Made by a program: the position numbers and the translations under genes | Source of the DNA: Arthrobacter silviterrae | GTDB lineage: Bacteria > Actinomycetota > Actinomycetes > Actinomycetales > Micrococcaceae | DNA length: 64,000 nucleotides | Assembly (NCBI RefSeq): GCF_011045165.1 | Contig: NZ_JAAKZI010000005.1 | Span: forward strand, 1 to 64,000 | Direction: 5' to 3' | Shown: one piece after another, positions 31,671 through 36,537 of the stretch | Layout: every line of letters begins with the position of its first letter | Position numbering within the stretch: position 1 is the stretch's first letter | Notes under the pieces: generated by a model | Seen by the model: only the letters and a program-made list of their open reading frames with translations | What the model was told of the DNA's origin: nothing | The model's database searches: none

Positions 31671-33014
31671 GTGACTACCGCATCCGGCTGGGGCCAGCCC
31701 CGCACCTCCCTGTTCACGGACCACTATGAGCTGACCATGCTCCAGGCCGCGCTTCATTCCGGCGCCGCGCACCGCCGCAGCGTCTTCGAGGCCTTCGCCC
31801 GGAGGCTGCCGGACGGCCGCCGTTACGGGGTTGTGGGGGGAACCGGCCGCCTGCTGGAGGGCCTGGAGCGGTTTCGTTTTGGCGCCCAGGAACTGGATTT
31901 TTTGGCCCGAAACGCGGTGGTGAATGACGAAACCCTGGCGTGGCTAGCCGATTTCAAGTTCTCAGGAAACGTGTACGGATATGCGGAGGGCGAACTGTAT
32001 TTCCCCAATTCCCCCATCCTTTCCATCGAATCAACCTTTGCCGAGGCCTGCATCCTGGAGACCTACGTGCTCTCCGTGCTCAACCACGACTCCGCCATCG
32101 CCTCCGCCGCATCCCGCATGATCACTGCTGCCGGTTCACGCCCCTGCATCGAGATGGGGTCCCGGCGCACCCACGAGGAATCCGCCGTGGCCGCCTCGCG
32201 TGCCGCCGTCATCGCCGGCTTCCACAGCACCTCCAACCTTGAGTGCGGCCTGCGGTATGGCGTGCTGACCCAGGGCACCGCGGCACACTCGTTTACGCTG
32301 CTGCACAACACCGAGGAGGACGCCTTCCGCGCCCAGGTGGCCTCCATGGGATCCGGCACCACGCTGCTGGTTGACACGTACGACGTCGAAGCGGCCGTCC
32401 GGAAGGCCGTCGAGATCGCGGGTCCGTCCCTGGGCGGCGTCAGGCTGGATTCCGGCGACCTGCTGGCCCAGGCGCATGAGGTCCGGGCCCTGCTCGATTC
32501 CCTCGGCAACGTCAACACCCGCATCACCGTCACCTCCGACCTTGACGAGTTTGCCATTGCCGCCCTGGCGGCGGCCCCGGTTGATTCCTACGGCGTGGGG
32601 ACGTCCCTGGTCACCGGGTCCGGGGCGCCAACGGCGTCGATGGTCTACAAGCTGGTCTCCCGCGAGGGCGACGACGGCGAATTTGTCTCCGTGGCAAAGT
32701 CCGCCAAGAACAAGGCAAGCGTTGGCGGGAAAAAGCAGGCCCTGCGCCGCCTGAACGCCCGCGGAATCGCCACTGCGGAGCTGGTGGGCATTGGCACCAT
32801 GCCTGAAAGCGACGGAAACGACAGGCCGCTGATTCAGGAGTTCATGGCCGGCGGCGTCCTGGCTCCCGGTTGGACGGGGCGCGAAGGCGTGGAGCGCGCC
32901 ACGGAACGCCATGCGGCGTCCATGGCCGAAATGCCAGGAGCCGCCCGCCGCCTCCAGCGCGGTGAGCCCGTCATCCCCACAGAATATTTTCAAGCCGCAG
33001 CTGCCCCGAACTAG
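31671..33014 (+). CDS. pncB: Nicotinate phosphoribosyltransferase
   Basis: 447-residue enzyme making nicotinate mononucleotide from nicotinate and PRPP in NAD salvage. Visible: FTDHYELTMLQAAL near the N terminus, MGSRRTHEESAVAASRAA, the GTAAHSF region that holds the autophosphorylated His in this family, VRLDSGDLLAQAHEVR and VTSDLDEFAI, and the phosphate-site end YGVGTSLVTG. GTG start; leaderless promoter. pncA follows after 49 bases on the same strand, giving a nicotinamide salvage unit that complements nadABC. Confidence 0.95.
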   Translation: MTTASGWGQPRTSLFTDHYELTMLQAALHSGAAHRRSVFEAFARRLPDGRRYGVVGGTGRLLEGLERFRFGAQELDFLARNAVVNDETLAWLADFKFSGNVYGYAEGELYFPNSPILSIESTFAEACILETYVLSVLNHDSAIASAASRMITAAGSRPCIEMGSRRTHEESAVAASRAAVIAGFHSTSNLECGLRYGVLTQGTAAHSFTLLHNTEEDAFRAQVASMGSGTTLLVDTYDVEAAVRKAVEIAGPSLGGVRLDSGDLLAQAHEVRALLDSLGNVNTRITVTSDLDEFAIAALAAAPVDSYGVGTSLVTGSGAPTASMVYKLVSREGDDGEFVSVAKSAKNKASVGGKKQALRRLNARGIATAELVGIGTMPESDGNDRPLIQEFMAGGVLAPGWTGREGVERATERHAASMAEMPGAARRLQRGEPVIPTEYFQAAAAPN

Positions 33015-33063
33015 CCCAGCCCCACCAACACAGCAATCCAGCCAATCACCGAAGGAGCACACC

Positions 33064-33684
33064 ATGGCCAAGGCACTGATCATTGTGGACGTCCAGAACG
33101 ACTTCTGCGAAGGAGGCTCGCTGGCCGTTGACGGCGGAGCCGAGCTGGCCTCGGAGATTTCCGAGCACATCAACGAAACGGCGGACTACGACTTCATTGT
33201 GGCGACGCAGGACTGGCACATTGATCCGGGAAGCCACTTCTCCGACACCCCCGACTTCATCAATAGCTGGCCCGTGCACTGTGTTGCCGGCTCCAAGGGC
33301 GCGGCCCTGCACCGAAACCTGGACACCGAGGACATCGACGCCTACTTCCGCAAGGGGCGGTACGACGCTGCGTACTCGGGCTTTGACGGGCTGTTGGCAC
33401 CGGAGGATGAAGTCATGCCGGGTGAGAGGGAAGCCCACGAGGCCGCCAACCCGGACGACGGCGAGGCTCCCGTCAGCCTGGACGACTGGCTGCGCGAGAA
33501 CGACGTCGAGGACGTGGTGGTGGTGGGAATCGCCACCGACTTCTGCGTCCGGGCCACCGCCCTGGACGCCGTCAATGCCGGCTACAACACAACAGTGTTG
33601 CGCGACTACGTGGCTGGCGTGGACGAAGACGCCAGCGAAGCGGCCCTGGACGAACTCGAGGACGCCGGCGTGGAGGTCAAGTAG
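33064..33684 (+). CDS. pncA: Nicotinamidase
   Basis: 206-residue isochorismatase-fold amidase that turns nicotinamide into nicotinate, the PncB substrate. The catalytic Asp is in IIVDVQNDFCEGGSL, metal ligands are in QDWHIDPGSHF, the Lys in FRKGRYDAAYSGF and the nucleophile Cys in GIATDFCVRATALDA. ATG 33064 has AAGGAG 8 bases upstream. Immediately after the stop begins the left REP-like repeat array. Confidence 0.95.
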   Translation: MAKALIIVDVQNDFCEGGSLAVDGGAELASEISEHINETADYDFIVATQDWHIDPGSHFSDTPDFINSWPVHCVAGSKGAALHRNLDTEDIDAYFRKGRYDAAYSGFDGLLAPEDEVMPGEREAHEAANPDDGEAPVSLDDWLRENDVEDVVVVGIATDFCVRATALDAVNAGYNTTVLRDYVAGVDEDASEAALDELEDAGVEVK

Positions 33685-33688
33685 CCGC

Positions 33689-33791
33689 GGACCGTCGGGC
33701 AGCGGGCGAGACCCGGTGGCCGGCAGCGAGCCCAGCGAGCGCGTCGAGACCCGGTGGTCGGGCAGCGAACCCCGCGAGCGCGCCGAGACCC
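33689..33791 (-). repeat. REP-like repeat array, left of the GIY-YIG gene
   Basis: Three tandem copies of a roughly 40-bp palindromic unit: a shortened one at 33689-33713, then 33714-33752 and 33752-33791. Each runs from CGGTGGYCGG through GCAGCGA and GCGAGCGCG to GAGACCC. They are in the opposite orientation to the copies at 34222-34318. The innermost end, GAGACCCTGG (33785-33794), is the exact complement of CCAGGGTCTC at 34221-34230. Confidence 0.85.
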
Positions 33792-33840
33792 TGGATTCCT
33801 TCGCGCCCCAAAGCTGGTAAGCACTACCTCTGGTGGCAAT

Positions 33841-33876
33841 CCGGGCCCGTTATCCACAATTCTGAAATTGGCCCGG
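33841..33876. promoter_or_regulatory. Hairpin with DnaA-box-like sequence before the GIY-YIG gene
   Basis: CCGGGCC (33841-33847) pairs with GGCCCGG (33870-33876), and CAATT with AATTG inside it. The left side of the loop contains TTATCCACA (33850-33858), an exact match to the classic DnaA box. The structure ends 26 bases before the GTG start. Function unknown. Confidence 0.45.
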
Positions 33877-33902
33877 AAAATAGGTCGTCCGGCAACGACA
33901 AT

Positions 33903-34202
33903 GTGAACATGCCACATGTATATATCTTGAAATGCAATGACTGCTCCTACTACGTCGGAAGCACGTGGAATTTGGAACGCAGGTTAGCCCAGCACAACGC
34001 CGGAGAAGGTGCGACGTACACGCGCAGGCGCAAACCCGTCGAACTGGTGTGGGCTCAAGAACACGACCGCGTGGACACGGCATTCGCACTGGAGCAGCAG
34101 ATACAAGGCTGGAGCCGCGCCAAGCGCGAGGCCCTCATAGAGGGACGGCTGATGGACCTGCCGGGCTTGTCCGAGGCCAAGTCTCGGCAAATACGATCGT
34201 GA
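33903..34202 (+). CDS. Small GIY-YIG nuclease domain protein (UPF0213/YhbQ-like)
   Basis: 99 residues, almost only the GIY-YIG catalytic fold: VYILKCNDCSYYVGSTWNLE near the N terminus (VYI for GIY, YVG for YIG), the catalytic Arg in LERRLAQHNAG, and the metal-site Glu in ALEQQIQGWSRAKREALI. Single-domain proteins of this class nick or cut DNA, and their roles are poorly known. Codon use differs from the surroundings: TTA, three ATA and CAA codons in a GC-rich genome point to recent arrival. The start may be GTG 33903 or ATG 33909; no strong ribosome site is seen. Inverted REP-like repeats flank it on both sides. Confidence 0.85.
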   Translation: MNMPHVYILKCNDCSYYVGSTWNLERRLAQHNAGEGATYTRRRKPVELVWAQEHDRVDTAFALEQQIQGWSRAKREALIEGRLMDLPGLSEAKSRQIRS

Positions 34203-34221
34203 CGGTATCAACCTAAACAGC

Positions 34222-34318
34222 CAGGGTCTCGACGCGCTCGCAGAACTCGCTGCTCGACCACCGGCGCGTGTGTCCCAGGGTCTCGACGCGCTCGCAGAAC
34301 TCGCTGCTCGACCACCGG
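34222..34318 (+). repeat. REP-like repeat pair, right of the GIY-YIG gene
   Basis: Two identical 43-bp copies at 34222-34264 and 34276-34318, 54 bp apart start to start. Each runs CAGGGTCTCGACGCG, then CTCGCAGAACTCGC and TGCTCGACCACCGG. The ends are imperfectly self-complementary (GGTCTCGA against TCGACCACC), as in REP elements. They are inverted relative to the array at 33689-33791. Confidence 0.9.
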
Positions 34319-34342: not shown

Positions 34343-36118
34343 CTATTTGCGGCCGAGGAACCAGTCCTGGAGCTTCTTGAGCCGCTGGTGGAGCTGGGGT
34401 TCGTTCGCCTGTGCCACGGCGGGTCCGCCGCAGATGCGCCGCAGCTCGCTGTGGACCATGCCGTGGGGCATGCCGGAGCGCGCGCTCCACGCCGAGACGT
34501 TCTTGGCCAGTTCGTGGCGCAGGTCCATCAGCATACGGTGGTCCACCACGGCAGCGGCCTCCGGCTCCGGTTCGGGTGCACTAGCCCCCTTGCCGCGCCG
34601 CCGGGTTTGCTGGGCAGCCTGGCGCTGGCGCAGCAGGACCCCCACTTGGTCGGCGTCGAGCAGGCCCGGGATGCCCAGGAAGTCGAGCTCGTCATCGCTG
34701 CCGATCTCGCCGCCGGTGCCGAATTCGCCGCCGTCGAACAATACCTTGTCAAAGGAGGCCTGGGACTCCAGCGCCTCAAACTTGAACTTTTCCAGCGTGT
34801 CAGACGCCTTTTCCTCGCGGTTGGCCTCCTCCATCTCGGCATCGTCAATAAAACCGTCTGGGTCCTTGTCCGGGCGGTCCAGGGCGTGGTCGCGCTCGAG
34901 TTCAAGCTGGTTGGCCAGTTCCATGAGGTTTGGCACCGACGGCAGGAAAACCGACGCCGTTTCGCCACGTTTCCGGGCGCGCACAAAGCGGCCGATCGCC
35001 TGGGCGAAAAACAGCGGCGTTGCCGTGGACGTCGCATAGACGCCAACTGCCAGCCGCGGCACGTCAACGCCTTCGGAAACCATCCGCACCGCCACCATCC
35101 AGCGCTTCTCCCCCGCGGAAAATGTGTCGATCTTGTCCGAGGCCTTGGCATCGTCGGACAGAATCACAGTGGGCGACTCCCCCGTGATCTTCTTCAGCTG
35201 GCCGGCATAGGCGCGGGCGTCGTCATGGTCGGTGGCGATGACCAGCCCGCCGGCGTCAGGCACGGCACGGCGCACCTCGGTGAGGCGCTTGTCGGCAGCG
35301 GCCAGCACGGCGGGGATCCACTCGCCCGCAGGGTTCAGCGCGGTGCGCCAGGCCTGGGAGGTGATGTCCTTGGTGACCGGGGCGCCCAGGGTGGCCGCCA
35401 TTTCCTCACCGGCACTGGTGCGCCAGCGCATCTGGCCGGAGTAGGCCATGAACATGACGGGGCGCACCACGTGGTCCTTGAGCGCCTCCCCGTAGCCGTA
35501 GGTGTAGTCGGCCTTGGAGCGGCGGATGCCGTCGCCATCCTCCACGTAGTCCACAAAGGGAATCGGGGCAGTGTCGGAACGGAAGGGCGTTCCGGTCAGG
35601 GCCAGGCGCCGGGCTGCCGGGTCGAATGCTTCACGGATGCCGTCGCCCCAGGACAACGCATCGCCGCCGTGGTGGATCTCGTCCATGATGACCAGCGTGC
35701 GGGCGGCTTCGGTCTTGGCCCGGTGCAAGAGCGGCTTGCTGGCCACCTGGGCGTACGTGACGGCCACGCCGATGAAGCCCTTGCCGTGGCGGCCGTCGGC
35801 ATTCTTGAAGTTCGGGTCGATGGAAATGCCAACCCGTGCCGCTGCGTCCGCCCATTGTCGCTTGAGGTGGTCCGTGGGGGTGACGATGGTGATCCGGTTG
35901 ATGGTGCCCCGGGCTATCAGCTGGGTCGCCACATGCAGGGCAAACGTGGTCTTGCCGGCACCGGGCGTGGCCACGGCCAGAAAATCGCGGGGGCCGGCCG
36001 AAAAGTACTTTTCCATGGCCTCGGTCTGCCACGCCCGCAGCTTTTGGGCCGTGCCCCATGCCGCCCGCTCAGGGTAGGCCGGAGGCAGGGACGGTCCGCC
36101 AAACAATGTTTCCGTCAC
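34343..36118 (-). CDS. DEAD/DEAH box helicase (superfamily 2)
   Basis: 591-residue SF2 ATPase. Motif I is ATPGAGKTTFALHVATQL near residue 55, motif II MDEIHHGG, motif III LTGTPFRSD, and the C-terminal motifs V/VI MVSEGVDVPRLAVGVYAT and FFAQAIGRFVRARKRG. A charged linker and a C-terminal helical region of about 200 residues follow (RRRGKGASAPEPEPEAAA), ending in a domain that may bind DNA or a partner. The type resembles actinobacterial UvrB/XPB-like helicases encoded next to DUF3039. GTG 36118 is the likeliest start; upstream ATGs are in low-quality sequence. The nucleic-acid role is unknown. Confidence 0.87.
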   Translation of the reverse strand: MTETLFGGPSLPPAYPERAAWGTAQKLRAWQTEAMEKYFSAGPRDFLAVATPGAGKTTFALHVATQLIARGTINRITIVTPTDHLKRQWADAAARVGISIDPNFKNADGRHGKGFIGVAVTYAQVASKPLLHRAKTEAARTLVIMDEIHHGGDALSWGDGIREAFDPAARRLALTGTPFRSDTAPIPFVDYVEDGDGIRRSKADYTYGYGEALKDHVVRPVMFMAYSGQMRWRTSAGEEMAATLGAPVTKDITSQAWRTALNPAGEWIPAVLAAADKRLTEVRRAVPDAGGLVIATDHDDARAYAGQLKKITGESPTVILSDDAKASDKIDTFSAGEKRWMVAVRMVSEGVDVPRLAVGVYATSTATPLFFAQAIGRFVRARKRGETASVFLPSVPNLMELANQLELERDHALDRPDKDPDGFIDDAEMEEANREEKASDTLEKFKFEALESQASFDKVLFDGGEFGTGGEIGSDDELDFLGIPGLLDADQVGVLLRQRQAAQQTRRRGKGASAPEPEPEAAAVVDHRMLMDLRHELAKNVSAWSARSGMPHGMVHSELRRICGGPAVAQANEPQLHQRLKKLQDWFLGRK

Positions 36119-36213
36119 GAAATCGCTGCCATCCTTGTCACTTCTTTCCCGTGCGCCCCTTGTTTTCAGGCACGCCAATTGCCGGCACTGATGCCGTGCG
36201 CCATTGCCGTTTG

Positions 36214-36537
36214 TTACTTCTTGGGGTTCTTCGGGCCCTTGCCCTTGCCGCCGGTGGGGTTCATGCCTTCGTAAATGGCCTTGCACTCGGGGCACACGGG
36301 GAACTTTTGCGGGTCACGCCCGGGCGTCCACACCTTTCCGCACAGGGCCACCACGGGCTCGCCGGTCAGGGCGGATTCCATGATCTTTTCCTTGCGGACG
36401 TAGTGCGAGAACCGCTCGCTGTCCCCCGGTTCCACCTCCTGGCGCAGTTCCTGGCGCTCGATGACGGCCGTGGAACCGCCGCTGCTGCCGGGGTTGAAAC
36501 GGGGATCGTTTTCGAAGGGGTCTGGTGGCAAGCTCAT
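36214..36537 (-). CDS. DUF3039 zinc-ribbon protein
   Basis: 107 residues. A disordered start (MSLPPDPFENDPRFNPGSS) leads to an acidic segment and then FSHYVRKEKIMESALTGEPV and a probable zinc site with VALCGKVW and PVCPECKAIYE, ending in a Lys/Gly-rich tail. DUF3039 is an actinobacterial family of unknown role, here directly upstream of the helicase, a conserved pairing. ATG 36537 lies 7 bases after TAGAAT, so the message is probably leaderless; ATG 36546 is an alternative. Confidence 0.85.
   Translation of the reverse strand: MSLPPDPFENDPRFNPGSSGGSTAVIERQELRQEVEPGDSERFSHYVRKEKIMESALTGEPVVALCGKVWTPGRDPQKFPVCPECKAIYEGMNPTGGKGKGPKNPKK

Follow-up and report, generated by a model that had tools for sequence, protein, structure and literature searches.

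A small GIY-YIG nuclease gene paired with inverted REP-like repeats in Arthrobacter silviterrae and its relatives

In a 64,000-nucleotide stretch of Arthrobacter silviterrae DNA (the window), a gene for a small GIY-YIG nuclease lies between two arrays of a dispersed REP-like repeat that face each other in opposite orientation. As an association, this RAYT-like pairing of gene and repeat is well supported across relatives; among the loci examined it is restricted to one clade of the enzyme, and the presence of the gene is linked to the copy number of the repeat. We consider it probable, if far from settled, that the gene encodes a dedicated nuclease of the repeat family and that the repeats derive from the element to which the gene belongs.

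Results

The nuclease gene

The gene (positions 33903–34202, plus strand) encodes 99 residues from a GTG at 33903 or 97 residues from an ATG at 33909; because Met3 is invariant in an alignment of 11 relatives, the true start is probably the ATG. The product matches the Pfam GIY-YIG family PF01541 (E 1.5e-19, 70.5 bits), and its Pfam matches comprise GIY-YIG and T5orf172 models only, with no HUH tyrosine transposase domain. The conserved tyrosines, arginine, histidine and glutamate of the superfamily are present. Y7, Y17, G19, R27, H31 and E64 are invariant in the 11 aligned rows, and we presume that the catalytic roles lie among Y7, Y17, R27, H31 and E64. The GC content of the gene is 58.3%, as against 66.3% for the window, and its GC3 is 71%, as against 81–82% for the neighboring genes. 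Its nearest named protein relatives are from Arthrobacter wenxiniae (87%) and Specibacter cremeus (79%), and the 4.29-Mb genome that contains the window (G000) holds just one other PF01541 match, within a 666-aa frame.

An AF2 model of the protein, built with nine sequences in the input alignment, reached a pLDDT of 83. The best PDB match of this model in Foldseek was 1ZG2 (UPF0213; E 1.6e-5, TM 0.54), followed by 1YWL and then by UvrC and Slx1 GIY-YIG domains at E > 0.01. Sequence comparison with solved structures likewise returned 1ZG2 (E 6.6e-19) and 1YWL, and UPF0213 (BH0048, 1ZG2; EF2693, 1YWL; B. subtilis YazA) is thus nearest among solved structures by sequence and by fold.

The repeat arrays at the window locus

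The gene and its arrays sit between an open reading frame at 32911–33684 (plus strand; true start likely further in), which we take to encode a pncA-type nicotinamidase, and a presumed helicase-type gene at 34343–36295 (minus strand); the first marks the left edge of the site found empty in other genomes, and the second, whose 3′ end was matched in 23 of 23 genus genomes, marks the right edge. The left array reads on the plus strand and contains copy 2 (33715–33751, GGTGG...GAGACC), identified from the sequence and by repeat comparison, copy 3 (33753–33790), and a further copy read from the sequence at 33694–33713; the sequence-only reading had counted three left copies, but only two are full and the one at 33694–33713 is shortened. 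The right array reads on the minus strand and contains copies at 34225–34262 and 34279–34316, which are identical over 44 nt (34221–34264 and 34275–34318). Positions 33751–33794 around left copy 3 are 86% complementary to the right copies, and at the inner ends GAGACCCTGG (33785–33794) is the exact complement of CCAGGGTCTC (34221–34230). The Pfam match and the repeat comparison therefore agree with the layout first described: a single-domain GIY-YIG gene, two identical right copies opposed to the left ones, and inner ends that are exact 10-bp complements.

The right copies carry a full w-GA...TCGA-w′ signature, in which w is an arm (GGTC) and w′ its complement, whereas the left copies do not. 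The units have no GTAG tag as read from the sequence, nor do they have the terminal CGTC tag, 8–9 bp stem and CCA tail of CGTC REPs. The core GGTCTCGACN{5,30}CGACCACC matches twice in the window, with 0 matches expected from shuffles, and the related core GGTCTCGACN{4,30}TCGACCACC matches 34 times genome-wide and 0 times when the pattern is read backwards. Random placement of 34 copies would put at least two within 1.3 kb of the gene with a P of about 5e-5, a value qualified by the clustering of copies elsewhere too, which makes the 34 not independent.

Association of the repeats with the gene in relatives

The protein was found in 9 of 118 genomes in a search of relatives and in 39 of 394 genomes at the level of the class. 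A genome scan gave eight relatives, and by eye each of them had repeat copies on both sides of the gene, in some (L040) just one copy; the repeat sequences differed between species. Sixty-eight loci were then pooled (L033–L041, L044–L049 and L057–L109; duplicates L042, L043 and L056 dropped), among which no two genes have identical DNA. Inverted similarity of the 600-bp flanks exceeded the 95th percentile of 65 distal controls at 58 of the 68 loci and the maximum of the controls at 22. The other 10 genes were not above the 95th-percentile mark, and to that extent the absence of flanking repeats, named beforehand as counter-evidence, was partly encountered. At seven loci examined over 20 kb, the GIY position scored above all 85–86 control positions. 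Repeat-end motifs at the 68 loci numbered 676 within 450 bp, versus 101 at 900–1350 bp, and the predicted clustering of repeat copies at GIY-YIG genes is borne out for this clade. Chance and local base composition are ruled out by the window shuffles, the distal controls and the control positions of the 20-kb loci; the backwards pattern also gave 0 matches in all 23 genus genomes.

The orientation of the innermost copies had been expected to be shared. The tail of the innermost upstream end faces the gene at 43 of the 68 loci (no motif at 6), and the same holds downstream at 32 (no motif at 15); inner-end orientation is a tendency, not a rule.

BLASTN of the distal flanks sorted the 68 loci into 48 contexts, of which the largest comprises 10 loci; 48 is an upper figure, since sequence divergence can split true contexts. 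In genomes with 2–5 paralogs, the repeat next to one gene differs from that next to another, as judged by eye for five genes in one genome and three in a second, and repeat similarity within 23 same-genome paralog pairs was 0.09–0.40. Across 2212 non-syntenic between-genome pairs, the Spearman correlation of repeat similarity with protein identity was 0.195, a value reached in 0 of 1000 permutations. One reciprocal pair from two genomes (L086/L089) combined 79% protein identity with a repeat similarity of 0.75; for the other 23 of the 25 listed paralogs, repeat similarity with the nearest protein elsewhere was 0.50 or less. Tight matching of protein and repeat by simple similarity was accordingly set aside, the correlation being weak and the extraction of units coarse. 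At two loci (L107 and L108) the repeat around the GIY gene is of another sort, with GTTCGCC/GGCGAAC-type arms and no GA-bulge signature.

A shared repeat plan with paired arms

The arms of the repeat vary together across loci. In GGT-Y-GA...TCGA-R-ACC units the variable positions were C-G in 195 and T-A in 75, compared with T-G in 1 and C-A in 2; the same pairs numbered 124, 48, 1 and 2 over distinct units and 34, 16, 1 and 2 by locus. Other arms also occur with their complements, GATC at 7 loci and CCCT at 5. The 4-bp w-GA...TCGA-w′ unit was present in the proximal regions of 61 of the 68 loci versus 24 of 68 distal regions, and complementary arms made up 300 of 4555 proximal versus 29 of 2779 distal arm pairs. 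With 5-bp arms, 33 loci were positive proximally versus 5 distally (shuffle mean 4.65, maximum 9). Three alphaproteobacterial loci (L050–L052) follow the w-GA...TCGA-w′ plan too, with arms GGCT, CCCT and TCCT, and single signature matches were seen at 2 of 13 UPF0213-like controls and 1 of 9 Neisseria-type (family-B) loci.

We read this plan as a stem with a GA bulge. The strong hairpin that might be expected was not found for single units: DNA folding of the four window units gave z values of +0.2 to +1.0 relative to shuffles, so support for paired arms comes from cross-locus co-variation only. The earlier description of the unit as an imperfect palindrome thus holds for arms that co-vary between loci, but not for the folding of individual units, each of which is a weak palindrome. 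The TTCGACAAGCTCA-type repeats said to be common presumably follow the same plan.

A conserved box upstream of the gene

The interval from the left array to the gene holds a TTATCCACA box (33850–33858, plus strand) containing a TCCACA element that we take to resemble a DnaA box. TCCACA or TGTGGA occurs within 160 nt upstream of the domain at 61 of the 68 loci, compared with a shuffle mean of 4.1 (maximum 9 of 68), 4 of 68 downstream and 5 of 68 distally, and the box starts 46–60 nt before the domain at 55 of the 68. The element is also near 6 of the 28 other repeat loci of G000. By eye, it was not seen in the alphaproteobacterial flanks inspected.

Repeat copy number follows gene presence

The genus set comprised 23 genomes, seven carrying the gene and sixteen not by the E cut-off used. 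Matches of GGTCTCGACN{4,30}TCGACCACC numbered 34, 75, 128, 3, 352, 46 and 20 in the carriers and 0, 0, 10, 0, 0, 1, 0, 1, 1, 1, 0, 0, 11, 6, 0 and 0 in the non-carriers (exact permutation P 2.9e-5, kinship ignored). The carrier with 3 matches (G009) has a gene with changes in the motif (Y7H, Y17S and H31D) and a tandem insertion, and its gene and repeats (L046) are likely a decaying pair.

Across the class, at least five matches of GGTTTCGAN{4,34}CTCAACCA were present in 15 of 39 carriers versus 6 of 355 other genomes (Fisher 1.9e-12, kinship ignored), with non-carrier status set by the E cut-off and at most 13 candidates scored per genome. The remaining 24 of the 39 carriers had fewer than five matches of this one counted pattern and likely contain other repeat types. 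Nine genomes, six from the class and three genus members (the latter with 6–11 matches), have 5–28 pattern matches and no gene of this GIY family. Their GIY matches lie in frames of at least 555 aa with two exceptions, one of which (L147) matches weakly (E 0.007) within a frame of 242 aa and has no repeat ends nearby. The second (L148, in repeat-bearing genome G430) is a different sort of GIY-YIG protein, 262 aa long. These nine genomes rule out a strict dependence of the repeats on the gene, and repeat-rich genomes without the gene, which had been named as a finding that would count against the pairing, exist to this degree.

Turnover of the gene and its arrays

The comparison of pncA-helicase loci that the sequence-only reading had called for was informative. 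The gene and repeats occupy this site in six of the seven genus carriers; G010 has repeats here and its gene elsewhere. In 11 of the 16 non-carriers the gap is short, about 90–160 bp, and has no array (minus-strand gaps corrected by hand). One of the gaps (G003) contains a repeat-like remnant, those of G004 and G012 are longer and hold unrelated sequence, and no usable gap was available for G013 (more than 1 kb) or for G015 and G019 (no pncA match). Because the short gaps lack arrays as well as the gene, gene and repeats appear mostly to come and go together. In G021 the gene-and-array unit is inverted at this site. At L047 and L049 the unit is inverted relative to its neighbors, as compared with the window. 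The inversions in G021 and L049 are likely by-products of the inverted repeats.

Ten G000 arrays were compared with four relatives, and seven of the ten had at least one aligned site. Orthologous sites were empty in both aligned relatives at L024 and in three of four at L010, and were occupied in all three aligned relatives at L017. Arrays that are present at an orthologous site in some genomes and absent from it in others amount to turnover, whether through gain or through loss. The left flank of L003 (query bases 1–148) has many matches in all four relatives searched, which marks it as another dispersed repeat of the genus. A further repeat type (GGGCCCACGAGCGCGAGGG and related sequences) was seen in the gaps of G018 and G021, with a related form in G006 (L177, L193 and L116), and in G012 the pncA-helicase gap (L118), which lacks a GIY gene, contains short repeated units (GGCGGGATCGGCGTCATT).

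UPF0213-like and Neisseria-type relatives

Of 27 UPF0213-like matches in a collection of plasmid records, 16 loci were fetched. Those nearest to our protein (50–56% identity), one from Sphingomonas (L050) and two from Methylobacterium (L051 and L052), have inverted flanks above controls, with L050 only slightly so (16.5 versus 14.0). The UPF0213-like loci outside our clade differ in this respect: none of the 13, which include B. subtilis YazA and of which ten had 7–8 control positions, has inverted flanks above control.

In the plasmid collection, 31 records matched a Neisseria-type GIY-YIG probe, and nine were fetched. At eight of the nine genes the flanks hold inverted repeats that exceed the control and were judged by eye to be CGTC-type (CGTC, TGTC or CCTC tags); these loci (L159–L165 and L167) are from Azospirillum, Novosphingobium, Sinorhizobium, Rhizobium, Planktothrix, Shinella, Sphingobium and Neisseria, and the exception is from Photobacterium (L166). 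One CGTC repeat was folded and gave a strong hairpin (z -4.6). Alignment of our protein with the Neisseria-type protein of L167, which we take to be Ssn, by hhalign gave 99.5% with 32% identity over 81 columns. In a tree of 92 columns, in which the bootstrap had not settled, six Neisseria-type rows formed a clade of their own (100/99) with ours outside it, 11 of 12 UPF0213-like rows formed a separate clade (100/98), and L053 was placed beside the Neisseria-type clade (91/78).

Discussion

The enzyme likely acts on the repeat, and we infer that the GIY-YIG protein cuts it on a single strand. The full element would consist of the gene with its inverted flanking repeats, and the scattered repeats would be gene-less derivatives, standing to it as REPs do to RAYT genes. 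A repeat might become single-stranded at a replication fork, in repair or in incoming DNA; its arms would then pair (GGTY with RACC, GA with TC) and leave a two-base GA bulge. The GIY-YIG enzyme could recognize the bulged form and cut in or beside the repeat, and repair of the cut from another copy would keep the copies alike and occasionally place one at a new site. That cutting spreads the repeat is a conceivable but doubtful part of this scheme.

GIY-YIG enzymes include homing nucleases, and the gene could itself be the mobile part, landing in or moving between arrays that something else maintains. The 68 loci in 48 contexts (a number that divergence alone can inflate), the repeats of G010 at a site from which its gene is absent, and the nine genomes with repeats and no gene of this family are all compatible with such a history, but repeat copy number follows the gene, paralogs of one genome lie among different repeats, and the innermost copies tend to face one way (43/68 upstream and 32/68 downstream, tail to gene). 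We regard homing-like movement as unlikely.

Unlikely, too, is a role in controlling DNA uptake, in which the enzyme would tune recombination by cutting single-stranded DNA at the repeats as it enters the cell, with host selection, not spreading, preserving the repeats. Ssn of Neisseria is said to do just this, and the profile match to the Neisseria-type clade (99.5%, 32% identity over 81 columns) together with the CGTC repeats around the Neisseria-type gene lend this possibility some weight; against it, one genus member has 352 matches and about eight others have 0, a spread that looks more like bursts than host design. A wholly fortuitous arrangement, in which REP-rich intergenic DNA gathers terminator-like repeats and a small nuclease gene with no functional link, would accommodate the dispersal of the repeats, the folding of single units no better than chance and the weak protein-repeat matching (Spearman 0.195), but is made very improbable by the flank controls, the seven 20-kb loci, the motif counts, the copy-number link in genus and class, and the 0 of 13 other UPF0213-like genes with inverted flanks above control. 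An invertible promoter or pure terminator was set aside as the main reading because copies flank both sides and follow the gene to different contexts.

A dedicated nuclease of the repeat family therefore remains our preferred reading. The RAYT/REP-like pairing proposed from the sequence, in which a GIY-YIG enzyme replaces the HUH transposase, draws support from the clustering, the copy-number link and the lack of inverted flanks outside the clade (0/13), but is tempered by the nine gene-less repeat genomes and the 10 of 68 genes below the control mark. For the proposal that the nuclease maintains or mobilizes the repeats, the association speaks in favor, but the presence and absence of arrays shows turnover and not its direction.

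The sequence-only reading knew of no description of such a system. For the kind of system this probably fails: a 2025 paper in Nature Communications reportedly describes Ssn, a family of site-specific GIY-YIG single-strand nucleases with repeats of their own (NTS in Neisseria) that are said to occur in many copies and beside the gene. Like our protein, Ssn is reportedly a small single-domain GIY-YIG protein, and ours has 99.5% profile similarity to Neisseria-type proteins. The latter differ in forming their own clade (100/99) and in lying among CGTC-type repeats at 8 of 9 loci, whereas ours has another repeat plan. Given the Neisseria-type homologues among CGTC-type repeats and the reported Ssn family, the system is not categorically new and its kind is probably already known; what looks new is the variant formed by the actinobacterial clade and the repeat plan peculiar to it. 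Among the matches listed in the open-licence literature, no title or abstract joins GIY-YIG with REP-like repeats, and in the accessible part of one paper (PMC9465073) the two terms stand apart and unconnected in a list of Moraxella genes.

RAYT genes with GTAG REPs (REPtrons) are comparable in having one gene between inverted repeats of a genome-dispersed family, as set out in Di Nocera et al., 2013 (PMC3733652); they differ in that the RAYT enzyme is an HUH tyrosine transposase, while the window has a GIY-YIG nuclease and units without a GTAG tag. CGTC REPs are also short and dispersed and lie beside a GIY-YIG gene at 8 of 9 loci (type assigned by eye), but are distinguished by a terminal CGTC tag, a short stem of 8–9 bp and a CCA tail, as characterized in the same source (PMC3733652), and by a strong hairpin that our units lack.

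We tentatively suggest, as a proposal that could well prove wrong, that GIY-YIG enzymes form another major class of REP keepers alongside the HUH RAYTs, with at least two clades that differ in repeat plan: CGTC REPs in the Neisseria-type clade and GA-bulge repeats in the actinobacterial and alphaproteobacterial one. As part of the same proposal, the DnaA-box-like TCCACA element that precedes the gene in actinobacteria may tie synthesis of the nuclease to replication, when the repeats are single-stranded, and the Neisseria-type clade may supply the CGTC REP enzyme that was said in 2013 to be missing (PMC3733652).

Many bacteria have short dispersed palindromic repeats, some large groups of which, such as the CGTC REPs of PMC3733652, have had no enzyme named for them. 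With a 97-residue nuclease that accompanies its own repeat type, at times as more than one pair per genome, the question of what keeps these repeats could be put to a direct test in laboratory actinobacteria. Should the enzymes cut their own repeats, they would constitute small nucleases whose likely targets can be read from the gene flanks, with potential use in single-strand DNA tools and in the study of protein-site co-evolution. CGTC REPs lack a dedicated transposase according to Di Nocera et al., 2013 (PMC3733652), a statement on which the location of eight of nine Neisseria-type genes among CGTC-type repeats bears.
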